Assembly: GCF_036370855.1 (NCBI RefSeq)
Contig: NC_088100.1
Coordinates: 106,684,387-106,748,386, forward strand
Length of the DNA: 64,000 nucleotides
From: Dromaius novaehollandiae
Lineage: Eukaryota; Chordata; Aves; Casuariiformes; Dromaiidae
Direction: 5' to 3'
In this document: positions 8,601 through 22,842 of the stretch, in pieces
How the letters are laid out: every line of letters starts with the position of its first letter
Numbering within the stretch: the stretch's first letter is position 1
The notes under the pieces: generated by a model
Told to the model about the DNA's origin: nothing
Database searches by the model: none
Seen by the model: the letters and a program-made list of their open reading frames with translations, nothing else
Position numbers and translations under genes: made by a program

Positions 8601-10769
8601 CATATGCTCATGAAATAAAAAGGAATAATTTTACAGTATAATAATTAGTGCAGCTAGGCAGAATGTCTGAATTTCTGTTCCTATCATGTTAAAATCAAGG
8701 AAGAATTATCTCTATCAATCCATTTTGTCCAGCCTCATTTTCCAGGAAGAAACTAATTCTATAATGTATATCATTTTTTACAAGATGATTATGAAGTTTT
8801 AAGTATGGATATATAACTAACTTCCAGCAGCAGAAGATAAAACATAGATTTTGAATCAGGCAGAATTTTAGAGATTTATCTGTAACACTGGCCAAAGCAG
8901 GAAGGAATATTAGTAAGGACAATAAGAATAGATAGATCTTACAAAGACAATATAATTTAAATAGTGCTTGAAGAAAAGTTCTCTTTTTAAAATAGAAGAG
9001 GACAGGTATCTTAAAATAACTGACACAAAACTCCTTATCCTTCAGACATTTTTGCTAGTTTCCCAACATTACTATGCCCAAGCACTGCCATCTAGGCAAG
9101 TAAGCCTTTCTTTAAAATACACTCATTGTTTGGTTTTCTCCTTCTCTTCTCCACCCCTGAAGATGACAGATTGCTTGTCCTGCTCCAATACAGTTGCCTG
9201 AACTCTGACATAAAATCCTCTGATAGCGGTTTCTAGATATTCAGGCATGTGTCATTGTTGTAGGATGCAGTTCAATTTGCAACGTGTCTTCTCCTCCCCT
9301 GCACACGCATATCTGCATAACACTGAAAAGACTTTTGAAAAGTCTTTATATATACATTAAAAACAGGTGCCTGACTGCCACATCCACCTAATGTGATGCC
9401 ACCTACATAACTTACTTTGGAGGAATATCACATGTCCATAAGAGTGTCTATAAGAAACCTGAAACTACTGTTCTTATTACAGCTTTGTAATGGTCCTTTC
9501 GCTGAAGAATGAAGTTACTGTTCAATATACTCAAAGATACCCAGTTCTGGTCCTGTTTGGAACACACATGTATATATGTATGCCTACACACATATACAGA
9601 TATTCTGTTTAATTTATTCCTAAAAGTAGCCTTCCTGTTTGCCTCAGTAGCTACCCAGAGATCTGCTGAATCCTGTGCTGTAAAAGGGCTGACTCTGCAC
9701 ACGCTCAGGGAGTGGTTCACAGTTCAAGGACCTGGAAAGCCACTGTGCTAGGGTTTCAGTTTCAGCACTTGTTCCTCGTGTTGACTACAATTACAGTGTT
9801 AACCCTGGGATTTAAAGAAACTCTGATTTCTGCCTAAAAGCACGTAAAAGTTGAAAACTGTGTGACTACTAAAGCTGTGATACCCAAAGAGGTGTCTCAA
9901 AGACAGGTGCTTTATCTCCCTATAAAGCCTGTAGTGACTGCAACCTAGTGCAAGAGGCTTTGCATCCTTTCCAAAAGGTTCACCTGCAACTTTTTGAAAA
10001 GGATTAAAATCAAAGCATGAACACATGTAAAGAACCAAATCAGCACATGGTTTACATCAGCATCACCCTATTTTGTTATTCATATCCATGCAACTTCACA
10101 CAACCAACACCTTTATGTTAAAGACAACCAGGCCCAAATACATAGAAAATTCCTGTACTTTTGCTCTGGTATTTGCTGACATTTGAAAAAAATAACGTGA
10201 AGGGGAAACCAGAAGATGTTTACATCTAATATAATATTAGCCTTATGATCCCATCACTGTACCTCTGATGTTCAAGGCTTCGGATTTTTTCTCTGTTTTC
10301 CTCTCAGACCTCTCCTCAGGCCTCTTTTGGTCATTTGGTGAATCACCTGCATTCAAAGAAGAAACGCTGTGTTGTGTATAAGTTCTACAAACAGAAAAAA
10401 CATCGACCTTCTCAAAACCAACGAATTTGAACGAATAAGGAAAAATAAAAAGACAGAAACACACTCACGCTCACACACACACAGGGACAAAGCCACGTTC
10501 CAATGGCTTTTGGGGCGCACACACCCCCCCTCACACCCCCCAGCCGGGACGCGGTGCAAAGCCCGGGGGAGGCGGCGGCGGGTTTGGGGGTCGGAAACGG
10601 CCCCTTCGTGGCAGAGGCTGGGCAGGGCGGTGGCGCCGGGGCAAGCAGCAGCAGCAGCAGCAGCAGCAGGGAGGGGAGCGGGCCGGGGCGAGGCGAGGCT
10701 GCAGCCGAAGGGCACCTGCTGCGCCGGCGGCGGGGGGCTCGGCGGCGGCGGCGGCGGCGGGGGGGGGCT

Positions 10770-11600: not shown

Positions 11601-14600
11601 CCTGGGCTCTGCTGCGCGCCGGGTACCGGTGTTTCGTGGGCTGTCCCAGCACAGCGAAGTTGTAGTGACAGGCCCGATAAATGCGCTCCTTTGGTACTTC
11701 ATTGATGGCGTGAGTGCCAAATCAAAGCATAGACTGCCATCTACTGAACCACCAGATTAGTTCCTGTCAATACCTGTCAATACTCTAAAAAGAGTCACGC
11801 TCAAACCGCACGTAAATGTGCGCGAATCCAGCATAGCCGGGGGGAAATTAATATCATGCAGTTATTTTACCCCGCAGACTGTAGGGAGCATAATAAATGA
11901 GGACACCTCTACTCCATGTTCGCAGAATTTTTTCATTCTTTGGAAAGCGGCACCCATGCATGCAATTGGAAAAGGGCGAGAGCATCGCTATTAAAATGGC
12001 ATTTTGAGATGATGAGAGCAATAGGGTAATTAAAGGAGCTGCCAGAAATTAAGCCATTTCCAACTGCTGGGTTCTTAAGAAACAACTGCTGTCACTACAT
12101 TTTCAGAGATCTCACACTGGACTTTCAATGTGTTTCTTGCCAGAAATAAATAAGAAAGAAAATCAGTATCGAGCTCAAGAAGAATAAACTTAAATAAAAG
12201 ACAGAAGAACTGGAGAAAACAGTGTCCTGAAATTACTACTTCAGCTACTACGATTCACACCAAAGTGTCACTAAATTTTTCACTGCTCTTGATAAAGTGT
12301 ATACTGGTCTAACTATCAGATTATAAGCAGACAGGACGGGGGAACACTATCATGCCCCTCCCACCAAAGTCGTGGTTCTCTACGACTAAAAATTAAAGAC
12401 CTAGAGGAAGATTCCTCTTTTATTCTAACTCTCAAGAGATATTGCATTGTTACTGCCATTGACAAGGTTTCGTCCCATGCTGGAGTACAGCCTTTACACG
12501 AGGCACCTCAATTCCATCTAAATTCTGTGTGCACAGCCAACACCTGTATTGCATACAGCCTGGGGCAGAGCTCAGCTGCTTGAGCGGACATATGGAGCCA
12601 TTTGGGCGATAACCTCCCTCATCACAAGGGTTAACACGCACAACTCCCAATTAACTGGAGGGTCTTGTATATGCCCTTCGCACATTCAATGCCCAAGCAA
12701 TAAAAGTATCCTGCAATATTCAAAATGATCAACTATATAAAACTAAATGTATTGAAGAGAACACTTTAATCTCACCATAACAACCAACGCAATAATGGGA
12801 GCAGATAACATAATTAAATCAATGCATATTTCAGCTTTAATATTAAATCTACCAGCATATGATGAGAGATTTTAAACAATACTGTCAAATAAAAAGTCGT
12901 ATGACACAACTGGAATAAAAAGCAGAAACATATATGAATTACAGGAAGCTTAACTAGAGTATTAGAGAAAAACTTAAAAATGACAGACTATATCTTCTTT
13001 AATGCAACTAATTATAGCAAATGCTGCCTCTTGCACTTCACTTACAGTGAGAAAATTTGCTGAAGCCCACCTCATTACAGCTGCATAAAACTGAAGTGAA
13101 TTACCCATGGATCTTATTTTAGGAATATGTATAATACAGTTCCTGGAACATCATTCATTCTCCGTTCAAAAATATGCATTAATTCCCTTTGAAACAAAAA
13201 CACACCATAGCCCTGCACTCACTTCAAAAACATATAAAAATACATTAGTTATTCTCAAGAAGCAGTACTAAAAATATTATTTTCAGCAAATAGCTCAAGA
13301 CCATGACTAAGTCCTCTTACATGGAGCACAATTAAAGATGACTCACTGGAATAGTCAGAAGCAGTATGTATGCAGAAGCAGTACATAGTCAGACCCTCAG
13401 CTCTGAATCTTTCTCTCCAGCCACTGATTTCTCCTCGTTCTGCATGTTAAGTTTATGCATCTTGATCTTCTTCTCAAGACCTGGCATTAGTTTGAAATTC
13501 ACCCTTTAACAAGTGTGACCAAAGAGTGTCTCTACTGGGTTAGAGCATAGGTCCATCTCTGAACCACTTGCAGGTCTAGTCTATGGTTTTGGAGATGAGG
13601 GAACCAAATTGCACAGTCTTCAAACCGCAGGTGAATCACAGATTCATACAGGAGCATAACAGTGGTACCTACTGTATCCTCTGTTCCTTTCACAGTGCTG
13701 CCTAATGTTTGATCAGTATTTTGTCTTCTGGGTGTTTAGCAGACATAGTCATGGAACTGAACATTTTCTCCCACTTTCTGCAAACAATCCTCTTGCCTCT
13801 TTTGTTTGCTTCTCACTCCCCACTCTGAGTTTTCACTTACACCAGCATGCGTACAAGCCTCCTCTGGCCCTGCATATCAAGGTACCACAACTACTCACAC
13901 AAATGACTCCTGAAACTTTCATCTGAACAAAGTTACCTCAGTCATTCTTTCTTGTCTGGTAAGTCAAGTCATTTACAGTAACAAAAAAAACTAATTTAAC
14001 TGAACCTTCAGAATGAAGTACGTTATCTCTATAACTCTCTTGGACTTTGATCCTCTTCCACGCAGTTCAAATGAAAGTCTTGATCCTGCAAGTAGGAGGC
14101 ACCAAGCTATTACTAGGGTTTCCATAGAGGGTTTTCCCTCATGAGCACCACACTTCTGCCTCCATCAGTCCACTTGCAGTACCAGAACACTTGGCCTTAA
14201 ATTGTTTTAGAAAGGGACCGTGTTTCTGATTGTTTTGCAAAGGGAAAGAAGGGAAAAAGCGTGTTTTATATTGACTGCAGACATTCAATTATACAGTGCT
14301 ATAGCCCCTTTAACAAAGTTCAGGAACTGAACTTCGTTCAATTCTTCTTCTTATGAACAAGACTAGTTTTATTTTGAACCCTAAAGACCCAAAGCAGTCC
14401 TGTAAGCTTCCAGATTTTTGTGTGCCAAGTTTTGAAGTTTCTCTACTCACAAATTGCTAACACTTTTATGTCAGCCAGGCAGCCAGCCAGCAGCCCATCT
14501 GCCCCTGTGGCCATAAGGGGAGGCTTAGGCAGCAGTAACAACAGGGTAAACATATATGATACTTTCCCAGGATACTCTTCCATCCTTCAAGTATTTTCAG

Positions 14601-20600: not shown

Positions 20601-22397
20601 GGCAAAGCAAACCCATGCTACGAGTGGAGGGGGAACCCGGGCCTGGCTGGGTCACGGCACTGATACCAGAGCAAGTTTGGAGGCTGCGGATCGCAACTCA
20701 AAAAATCAAGTTTATACTTGCTGGACAAAAATATGTGGACTAAGATGGGAATCTGAGGAGTAGATACTGGAACTAAAACAAGGGAAAAGAGTGGAAAATT
20801 GGATCCACACATGTGAACAATATTGCCTGTGTCCATCGGACCTCGGCCTTGCCTGGCAACGTTCGCTGTCGGCAAGGCTCCCCCTTCTGCTGTCCGCAGC
20901 GCCCGGGAGACCCACCAGCGCTTTTCCGTCCCCCATGCTAGATCACATGACAGGTGAACTAGGTGAACTGCTGGCTGTTGCTATTAATAGCAATACTAAA
21001 ACACGGCACTAATAAACAGGCGATAATTTGCTTCACTGGATTTAGAGACTCCCACCACTCTCAGCACCTGCAATACAACGCTTAGATGATTGAACTACTC
21101 TCTTTATTTTTTTGTTTATATTTTTTCAGAGCAATACAAGCAACCACACAGAAGATGTAAGAGGGCACTTCTCCCGCAAGTGAGGGGATAGTTCAAATCC
21201 ATTCCCTGCTTACAGGATGGAGATGCGGAGCCAGCGCTCCCACTCCTCCGGAGAGCCTGACACTCGGAGGGCTGGTCTACAAACCTTGGCCCTGCAGTGA
21301 ACTTTCATTGATATCAACAGCTTGCACAGGTGTCTCTGAGGGTATTGCCTGAGGACGGCTGGTCTGCACTAGCACAATTCAGACACCACGTTCATTCACC
21401 TGAATTTCTGTTAGTGGCACTGACGCATTGGAAAATTTGCCTTGACTTCTGCCTCCTAAGCCTGAGGAAAGAGCATCTTTTCCTCGTAAACAAGATAACA
21501 AGAAAGAGATGGAATCCCACATCATTATTCTCCTCTGTTTATATATATATAGATATAGATATATACATGCATATGTGCGTGCATGCATGTATATATATAT
21601 ATATATGCTTTTCAGAGTACTTCTATTTAGTAATAGCGTTTCTTCTAAAATAAATACAATAAAAAACCCACTCAGGTTAAATTTAGAGAACTAGAGAAAA
21701 TAAATGTGAAATTTTACCTAAGAGAGGATTATAAAATTAAGTCCAGATGAAAGGAGTATTCCCTCTACAGTAGACAATGACACTGCCTTGCCTGTTGGCA
21801 TTACTGCAGGCAAAGAAGATTCACCTTACTGAAAGTAAAAAGACAAAACCACGGACAAATCCATACACTATGTTTATGGGACAGAACAAAACTCATCACT
21901 GGCTTATGCGACCCACGTTCAGTTGAAAGCAAAGCGGAGCTGCCTTGCGTTTCTCAGGACAGAACCGGGACACGCACCTGCTGGCGGGAGAGGAATGGCT
22001 ACGGTGTGCCAGGGAGCTGCTAGCAGCATCCTGCAAATTCACCAAGTGACACATTTACCTGTGCAGCTGCCATTAATTTCAGTTAATATCCTACTTGCCC
22101 AGCATGCTCCATCTTCGGTTTTAAGCACTGCTGTGTTCCTCCTCTCTGACTTCACCCACAGGCACAATTTGCTGCCAGGATGAAACAGTCTTTCTTCCAG
22201 AGCCCACCTGGGACAGAGGCTGAGGCTGCGTGAGGAACTGCTGGCAGTTCCTAACATAGGATCCCATTAAATCCCCCACTAACGACATGCCACCACAATG
22301 CTTTACTTGCCCATCTCAGAGAAACAGCAAACAGTCAAGCCGCTAAGCAGAACTGCGGAGGGCTGGGAACGCTGAGTAACTGCGTTAGATTATTTAC
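11601..22397. other. Region between SLC30A10 exon 1a and exon 1b; no gene recognised
   Basis: I searched the minus strand here for copies of SLC30A10 exons 2-4 (HxxxD TM5, CNWQCYIDP, HEVHVWEL) and found none. It holds an AT-rich tract at 15111-15152, a purine-rich, GC-richer stretch at about 20260-20640, and a TA/TG microsatellite at 21539-21607. The longest open frame (16657-17148, plus) resembles nothing I know. If exon 1b splices to exon 2, this interval is its intron. Confidence 0.55.
21539..21607. repeat. TA/TG-rich microsatellite
   Basis: Alternating pyrimidine-purine sequence: a TA run, then GATATA units, a mixed TGCATGTGCGTG core, and a second TA run of about 18 bases. A simple repeat. 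Confidence 0.85.
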
Positions 22398-22842
22398 CTG
22401 TTCCAGTGTCTCCTTGGGGTGCATGACAGAAACAGCAGTCCATGAAGATAGCATAGTTTAACACATTGAAGAACAGACCTGAAAGCCCGACAATGAGGAC
22501 GAGAAATGCTTTTTCTGTCTTCTGAGGATTGAGATACCTCTTGATTGCCTCAATGAAGATGCTGAGCATCAGAGCAGTGGCAAAAACAGAGTTGCCAAAG
22601 GCTCCCAGCACATCCGCCCGGGAGAAGCCATAAGTGTTAGCCTTGTGCCATCTGATGCTGCTCAGCCTAACGCCGACCAAACCGATGATCATGGAGACAA
22701 AGTGAGACAGAACAGCAAAGGCATCTGAAGCTAAGCTAAGAGAATTGCCAAGGTACGCTACTGAGATCTCAACAGCGAAAAGCGCAAGGCTCACAACGCA
22801 CATAAGGATGAGCCTGCTGCTCCTCCCTGAGTAGCGGCCCAT
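22398..22842 (-). CDS. Exon 1b: diverged second copy of SLC30A10 first exon (CDF TM1-TM4)
   Basis: An ATG at 22842 (context GAAATGG) opens 148 codons with no stop. They begin MGRYSGRSSRLILM and end before a consensus donor (GGAACAG then GTAAAT) in phase 1. The product aligns without gaps to residues 1-134 of SLC30A10 exon 1a: MGRYSG start, YLGNSLSLASD in TM2, NTYGFSRADVLGAFGNSVF in TM3, VLIVGLSGLFFNVLNYAIF in TM4. It lacks the Pro/Ala loop. At the TM2 metal site it has Ala43 and His47, where ZnT10 has Asn43 and Asp47. A TATA box lies about 115 bases upstream. No own downstream exons are found within the window, and the donor phase fits SLC30A10 exon 2, which would give a 414-residue protein. 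It could be an alternative first exon, part of a paralogue, or a relic. Homology is certain; gene status is open. Confidence 0.75.

Follow-up and report, generated by a model that had tools for sequence, protein, structure and literature searches.

The window analysed, a stretch of 64,000 nucleotides without any N, corresponds to positions 106,684,387-106,748,386 of NC_088100.1 in the Dromaius novaehollandiae assembly GCF_036370855.1, and the assembly searched comprised 1.47 Gb. On the minus strand of the window lie EPRS1, SLC30A10 exons 1a, 2, 3 and 4 and, between the two genes, an additional exon of SLC30A10 type that is named exon 1b here (Table 1). The EPRS1 stop is separated from the start of exon 1b by approximately 4.5 kb, and the end of exon 1b from the start of exon 1a by 11.1 kb. 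The location between EPRS1 and SLC30A10 on their common strand, proposed in an earlier sequence-only reading of this DNA, is borne out by the EPRS1 frame that ends above exon 1b and by exon 1a below it. Exon 1a is extremely GC-rich, with a GC3 of 0.99 in the aligned part, its TM4-TM5 loop has turned into runs of proline and alanine, and its best phase-1 donor is weak.

Table 1. Features of the EPRS1-SLC30A10 interval in window coordinates; "shared" denotes exons that would be common to both first exons.
Feature	Start	End	Strand	Remark
SLC30A10 exon 4 (cytosolic C-terminal domain and stop), shared	5211	5686	-	
SLC30A10 exon 3 (TM5, TM6), shared	6468	6707	-	HVMGDALGS: His244, Asp248, Ser252 (human numbering)
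SLC30A10 exon 2, shared	10263	10346	-	84 bases, both boundaries in phase 1
SLC30A10 exon 1a, coding part	10716	11265	-	donor at 10716 inferred, weak (CAG/GTGCCC)
Intron start after exon 1b (GTAAAT)	22392	22397	-	sequence
SLC30A10-type exon 1b, TM1-TM4	22398	22842	-	ATG to phase-1 donor, 445 bases = 148 codons + 1
TATAAAA, candidate core promoter of exon 1b	22958	22964	-	first base 122 bases above ATG; sequence match only
EPRS1 3' coding end, open frame	27296	27571	-	ProRS-C_1 (ProRS C-terminal domain) match at 27415-27299
EPRS1 glutamyl-tRNA synthetase catalytic domain (PF00749), four matches	51592	54658	-	domain match

Exon 1b begins with MGRYSG, as does SLC30A10 exon 1, and its ATG has a purine at -3 and G at +4. 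The predicted TM1-TM4 region belongs by sequence match to the Pfam family Cation_efflux (PF01545) with an E of 2.6e-18 and 66.9 bits against a cut-off of 26.6. Of the human SLC30 proteins for which a structure has been solved, SLC30A10 matched best (111.4 bits, E 4.4e-31), followed by SLC30A1 (79.4 bits) and ZnT7 (39.5 bits). The Pfam and structure matches, both far above chance, indicate that exon 1b is real as a sequence and lies on the SLC30A1/SLC30A10 side of the family; together with re-reading of the frame, start and end they uphold the earlier description of an intact 148-codon frame of SLC30A10 type opening on MGRYSG. The AlphaFold2 model obtained from a two-row alignment contained four long helices and one short helix with a mean pLDDT of 55.9, which is too weak for a fold search. 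No relative was present among 11 pattern matches in viral contigs.

Exon 1b ends at the donor CAG/GTAAAT, which a frequency matrix placed within the best 0.7% of GTs on the minus strand of the window. On the same scale the exon 2 donor ranked at 14%, that of exon 3 at 5% and the inferred exon 1a donor at 12%. Joining exon 1b to exons 2-4 in silico produced a frame of 414 residues that remained open to a single terminal stop. Thus, both the consensus phase-1 donor and the in-frame continuation into exon 2 with a 414-residue product, as claimed in the sequence-only reading, held on re-examination. Exon 2 is 84 bases long and phase-symmetric, so that exon 1b could join exon 3 instead; the direct join to exon 3 was also in frame and encoded 386 residues. 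No consensus metal-response-element core was found in the 1 kb above the exon 1b ATG. The locus has the plan of UGT1A in that homologous first exons on the same strand stand above one common exon set with matching donor phase, the phase of exon 1a being dependent on its inferred donor.

In order to find exons that could belong to exon 1b alone, the window and the assembly were searched for further copies of exons 2-4. Local alignment with SLC30A10 and SLC30A1 pieces revealed no copies above shuffled controls in either the 22.39-11.8 kb or the 22.85-30 kb interval: all eight comparisons fell within the nulls, with a lowest P of 0.10, while exon 1a against exon 1b, the positive control, scored 367. 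The statement that exons 2-4 are not repeated between exons 1b and 1a was therefore confirmed for the 22.39-11.8 kb interval. The best extra exon 3 match among the tblastn matches listed for the window, at 13762-13914, had an E of 0.016 and was on the opposite strand. Searches of the whole assembly score the best candidates only, and among these the joined exon 3-4 protein gave eight matches, of which two were the SLC30A10 exons, one was SLC30A1 (E 5.1e-33) and five were weak (E 0.24-4.5). The weak match with E 0.24 adjoins the SLC30A1 match, and the other four had E 1.6-4.5. Hence confident TM5 and C-terminal exons of SLC30A10 type were found among the best-scoring candidates only in SLC30A10 and in SLC30A1, 3.7 Mb away. 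Private exons 2-4 for exon 1b were rejected on the combined outcome of the window tblastn, the assembly search and the shuffled-control alignments. Should exon 1b be part of a full-length transporter in this assembly, the searches point to exons 2-4 of SLC30A10 as its sole plausible partners.

When exon 1b itself was compared with the assembly, the best-scoring candidates comprised four matches: exon 1b, exon 1a, the exon of SLC30A1 and a weak match interrupted by stops (E 0.75). The array of first exons envisaged earlier thus reduces to two, 1a and 1b; a third in SLC30A10 was absent among the best-scoring candidates genome-wide. Separately, a weak match was noticed that recurs with identical translation and stops on two large contigs, G000:C33 and G000:C35 (72 and 86 Mb); these contigs may represent sex chromosomes, a Z and a W that have diverged little.

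Exon 1b is 44% identical to exon 1a over 138 aligned residues and 44% identical to human SLC30A10, whereas exon 1a and human SLC30A10 are 88% identical. Identity to SLC30A1 was 36% for the protein of this genome and 32% for the human protein. Of the 45 sites distinguishing SLC30A10 from SLC30A1, exon 1b resembles SLC30A10 at 14, SLC30A1 at 6 and neither at the rest; at the 17 sites where exon 1a differs from human SLC30A10, it sides with each at 5. The best tree of six rows placed exon 1b with SLC30A1 at an unsupported 61/68, and placement with SLC30A10 was not rejected (p-AU 0.455). The exon 1b branch was 0.76 long, while those leading to the two SLC30A10 rows measured 0.05 and 0.085. A tree in which exon 1b groups with exon 1a, as expected for duplication after the bird-mammal split, cost 5.8 log units and was not rejected (p-AU 0.09), and the same held for the tree joining exon 1b to human SLC30A10. 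Dating by silent sites was abandoned and no date was taken, dS between exons 1a and 1b being saturated (undefined by NG86, 28 by maximum likelihood), in part because of the GC3 of exon 1a. The equal distances of 44% would be expected of a duplication that predates the bird-mammal split, or of a younger copy that evolved fast, with the tree leaning to the former. In view of the p-AU for a recent duplication and the even split of 5 against 5 sites, exon 1b is described here as probably an old duplicate.

The pattern of substitution was compared with neutral simulations, which were run without indels, the 1a-1b alignment having one gap of one residue. The mean BLOSUM62 score at the 77 sites that differ between exons 1b and 1a was -0.04, while the simulations to 50% identity averaged -0.77 from 1a codons and -0.60 from 1b codons. 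None of the 400 runs to 50% identity from either set of codons matched -0.04. The share of runs reaching this value at 60, 70, 80 and 90% identity was 0, 0.3, 1.5 and 6.5% from 1a codons and 0.5, 3.3, 9 and 19.5% from 1b codons; with shares rising in this way, the test counters drift over most of the divergence and not over a short last stretch. Exon 1b retained 33 of the 54 residues identical across the two rows of SLC30A10 and the two of SLC30A1, compared with 23 of the 67 others that the SLC30A10 pair has in common (Fisher p 0.004). Identity to exon 1a at the three codon positions was 0.51/0.67/0.35. The hydropathy correlation was 0.73, a value exceeded in 1% and 5% of runs to 50% identity and in 24% and 36% of runs to 60%, and for this reason the hydropathy measure says little. 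The intact frame alone is likewise weak evidence of constraint, since 15% and 14% of the neutral runs to 50% identity remained free of stops. Overall, the conservative substitutions relative to the neutral simulations argue for selection on the protein, and exon 1b was probably under such selection during much of its evolution, past constraint being no proof of present use.

Alignment to the metal-site residues of the family, in human numbering, established a feature that is new in this analysis: exon 1b has lost Asn43 and Asp47, replaced by Ala and His respectively, and has kept Glu25, Asp40 and Asn127. Asp47 is present in all five other aligned rows (exon 1a, human SLC30A10, both SLC30A1 and ZnT7). 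According to PMC11633486, positions 43 and 47 and two TM5 residues hold zinc in SLC30A1. With Ala43 and His47 exon 1b lacks this canonical TM2/TM5 arrangement, and the tetrahedral site would be broken or rebuilt in the 1b product, the TM5 residues of which would come from shared exon 3. For SLC30A10, a review (PMC13272668) reports that Asn43 was once held essential and that a later cryo-EM study located Mn2+ at Asp40, Asn127, Asp248 and Ser252, with Asn43 having no significant effect. Exon 1b encodes Asp40 and Asn127 of this set, and Asp248 and Ser252 would be contributed by shared exon 3 only if the two are spliced. The loss of Asn43 and Asp47 makes an ordinary SLC30A10 transporter from exon 1b less likely; relaxed constraint could equally explain the loss of Asp47.

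The strand, phase, donor, TATA distance and lack of found private exons fit an alternative first exon, and we consider it somewhat more probable than otherwise that exon 1b serves SLC30A10 in this capacity, in the manner of UGT1A. We infer the promoter, splicing, dimerisation and function of the 1b form as follows. Transcription would start from its own promoter, marked by the candidate TATA box, and the transcript would read through exon 1a, with splicing across 12,051 bases from the end of exon 1b to exon 2, or else to exon 3. In the product the TM1-TM4 half would differ from that of the 1a form, whereas TM5-TM6 and the C-terminal dimerisation domain would be unchanged. Most likely the product would act either as a protomer whose selectivity and metal handling are altered, or as a ZnT6-like auxiliary subunit, weak or inactive, which dimerises with the 1a product by way of the C-terminal domain they have in common, much as ZnT6 pairs with ZnT5. 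If the 1b isoform is made, the gene would be one for a transporter that exchanges its N-terminal half by choice of promoter, and the isoform would have to be counted in studies of manganese handling in this lineage. It would also provide a natural experiment on the disputed question of whether positions 43 and 47 are needed for Mn2+ transport or whether Asp40, Asn127, Asp248 and Ser252 suffice.

The main rival, which we judge unlikely, is that a complete tandem SLC30A10 paralogue once existed and lost its exons 2-4 through deletion or decay, exon 1b being all that can still be recognised of it after a recent release from selection. The missing Asn43 and Asp47, the long branch and a stop-free frame of a kind not improbable under drift would all be expected of such a relic. 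More than one copy does occur in vertebrates, as indicated by Table 2 of PMC4281218, which lists two SLC30A10 genes for coelacanth and a single one for chicken but none for any of six teleosts; the second coelacanth gene is a possible full-length counterpart of the ancestor of exon 1b. Against a relic, the start codon, frame, donor and TATA box of exon 1b are all intact and its substitutions are conservative, and exons 2-4, of which neither the best-scoring candidates of the assembly search nor the shuffled-control alignments gave any trace, must have been removed cleanly while exon 1b stayed.

It is improbable that exon 1b forms a separate short gene, either unspliced and encoding TM1-TM4 only or joined to unrelated downstream exons. 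Without splicing the frame extends just two codons past the donor to a stop at 22392-22390, for a total of 150 residues, and one AATAAA at 21108 on the minus strand, approximately 1.3 kb downstream, could serve a short transcript with exon 1b at its end. These features have to be set against a strong donor whose phase matches SLC30A10 intron 1, a product that would be half a CDF transporter devoid of TM5 and the dimerisation domain, and a nearby search that gave no other downstream exons of SLC30 type. That splicing of exon 1b to exon 2 is low-level noise, or yields an untranslated or regulatory transcript without a role as protein, is very improbable: exon 1a is the conserved copy at 88% identity to human, but the conservative changes in exon 1b imply a protein selected for part of its history.

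Returning to the alternative first exon, a fuller version of this reading is offered tentatively and is on balance doubtful. SLC30A10 would then be a two-headed gene in which exon 1b predates the bird-mammal split and was lost by mammals, the TM2 ligands having gone while the Mn2+ site of Asp40, Asn127, Asp248 and Ser252 and the dimerisation domain were kept. Were this true, a cell could tune export of manganese (or zinc) by mixing active and modified protomers. No second SLC30A10 first exon was apparent in the titles and abstract openings listed for literature on alternative first exons, paralogues, synteny and sauropsids, and the predicted 1b isoform is possibly present and unremarked in gene annotation databases. 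The term "zinc transporter 10-like" occurs in two papers (catfish, soybean).

Compared with known transporters, exon 1b is most like SLC30A10 (ZnT10, a calcium/manganese antiporter), with homology of TM1-TM4 from MGRYSG onward and with exons 2-4 in common if spliced; it differs in Ala43 and His47, in a shorter TM4-TM5 loop and in the identity of 44%. SLC30A1 (ZnT1) is the next closest paralogue and is without the MGRYSG start that exon 1b has. As described in PMC7949119, ZnT6 is without two coordinating residues and pairs with ZnT5 via the C-terminal domains. The predicted 1b product would likewise be a CDF protomer missing two coordinating residues; ZnT6, unlike exon 1b, has a gene of its own and lost its residues to hydrophobic ones, whereas one has become His in exon 1b, and the suggested partner of the 1b product is the other isoform of the same gene. 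A 2016 paper cited in PMC7949119 concerns, by its title, SLC30A10 heterodimers. The closest parallel in gene plan is the UGT1A locus, in which, according to PMC5075577, several exon 1s are spliced to common exons 2-5 and nine human isoforms are named, the tandem first exons encoding the N-terminal part and the common exons the rest. That locus encodes a glucuronosyltransferase and has several first exons, whereas the locus described here has two and encodes a membrane transporter, and the resemblance is one of analogy, not homology.
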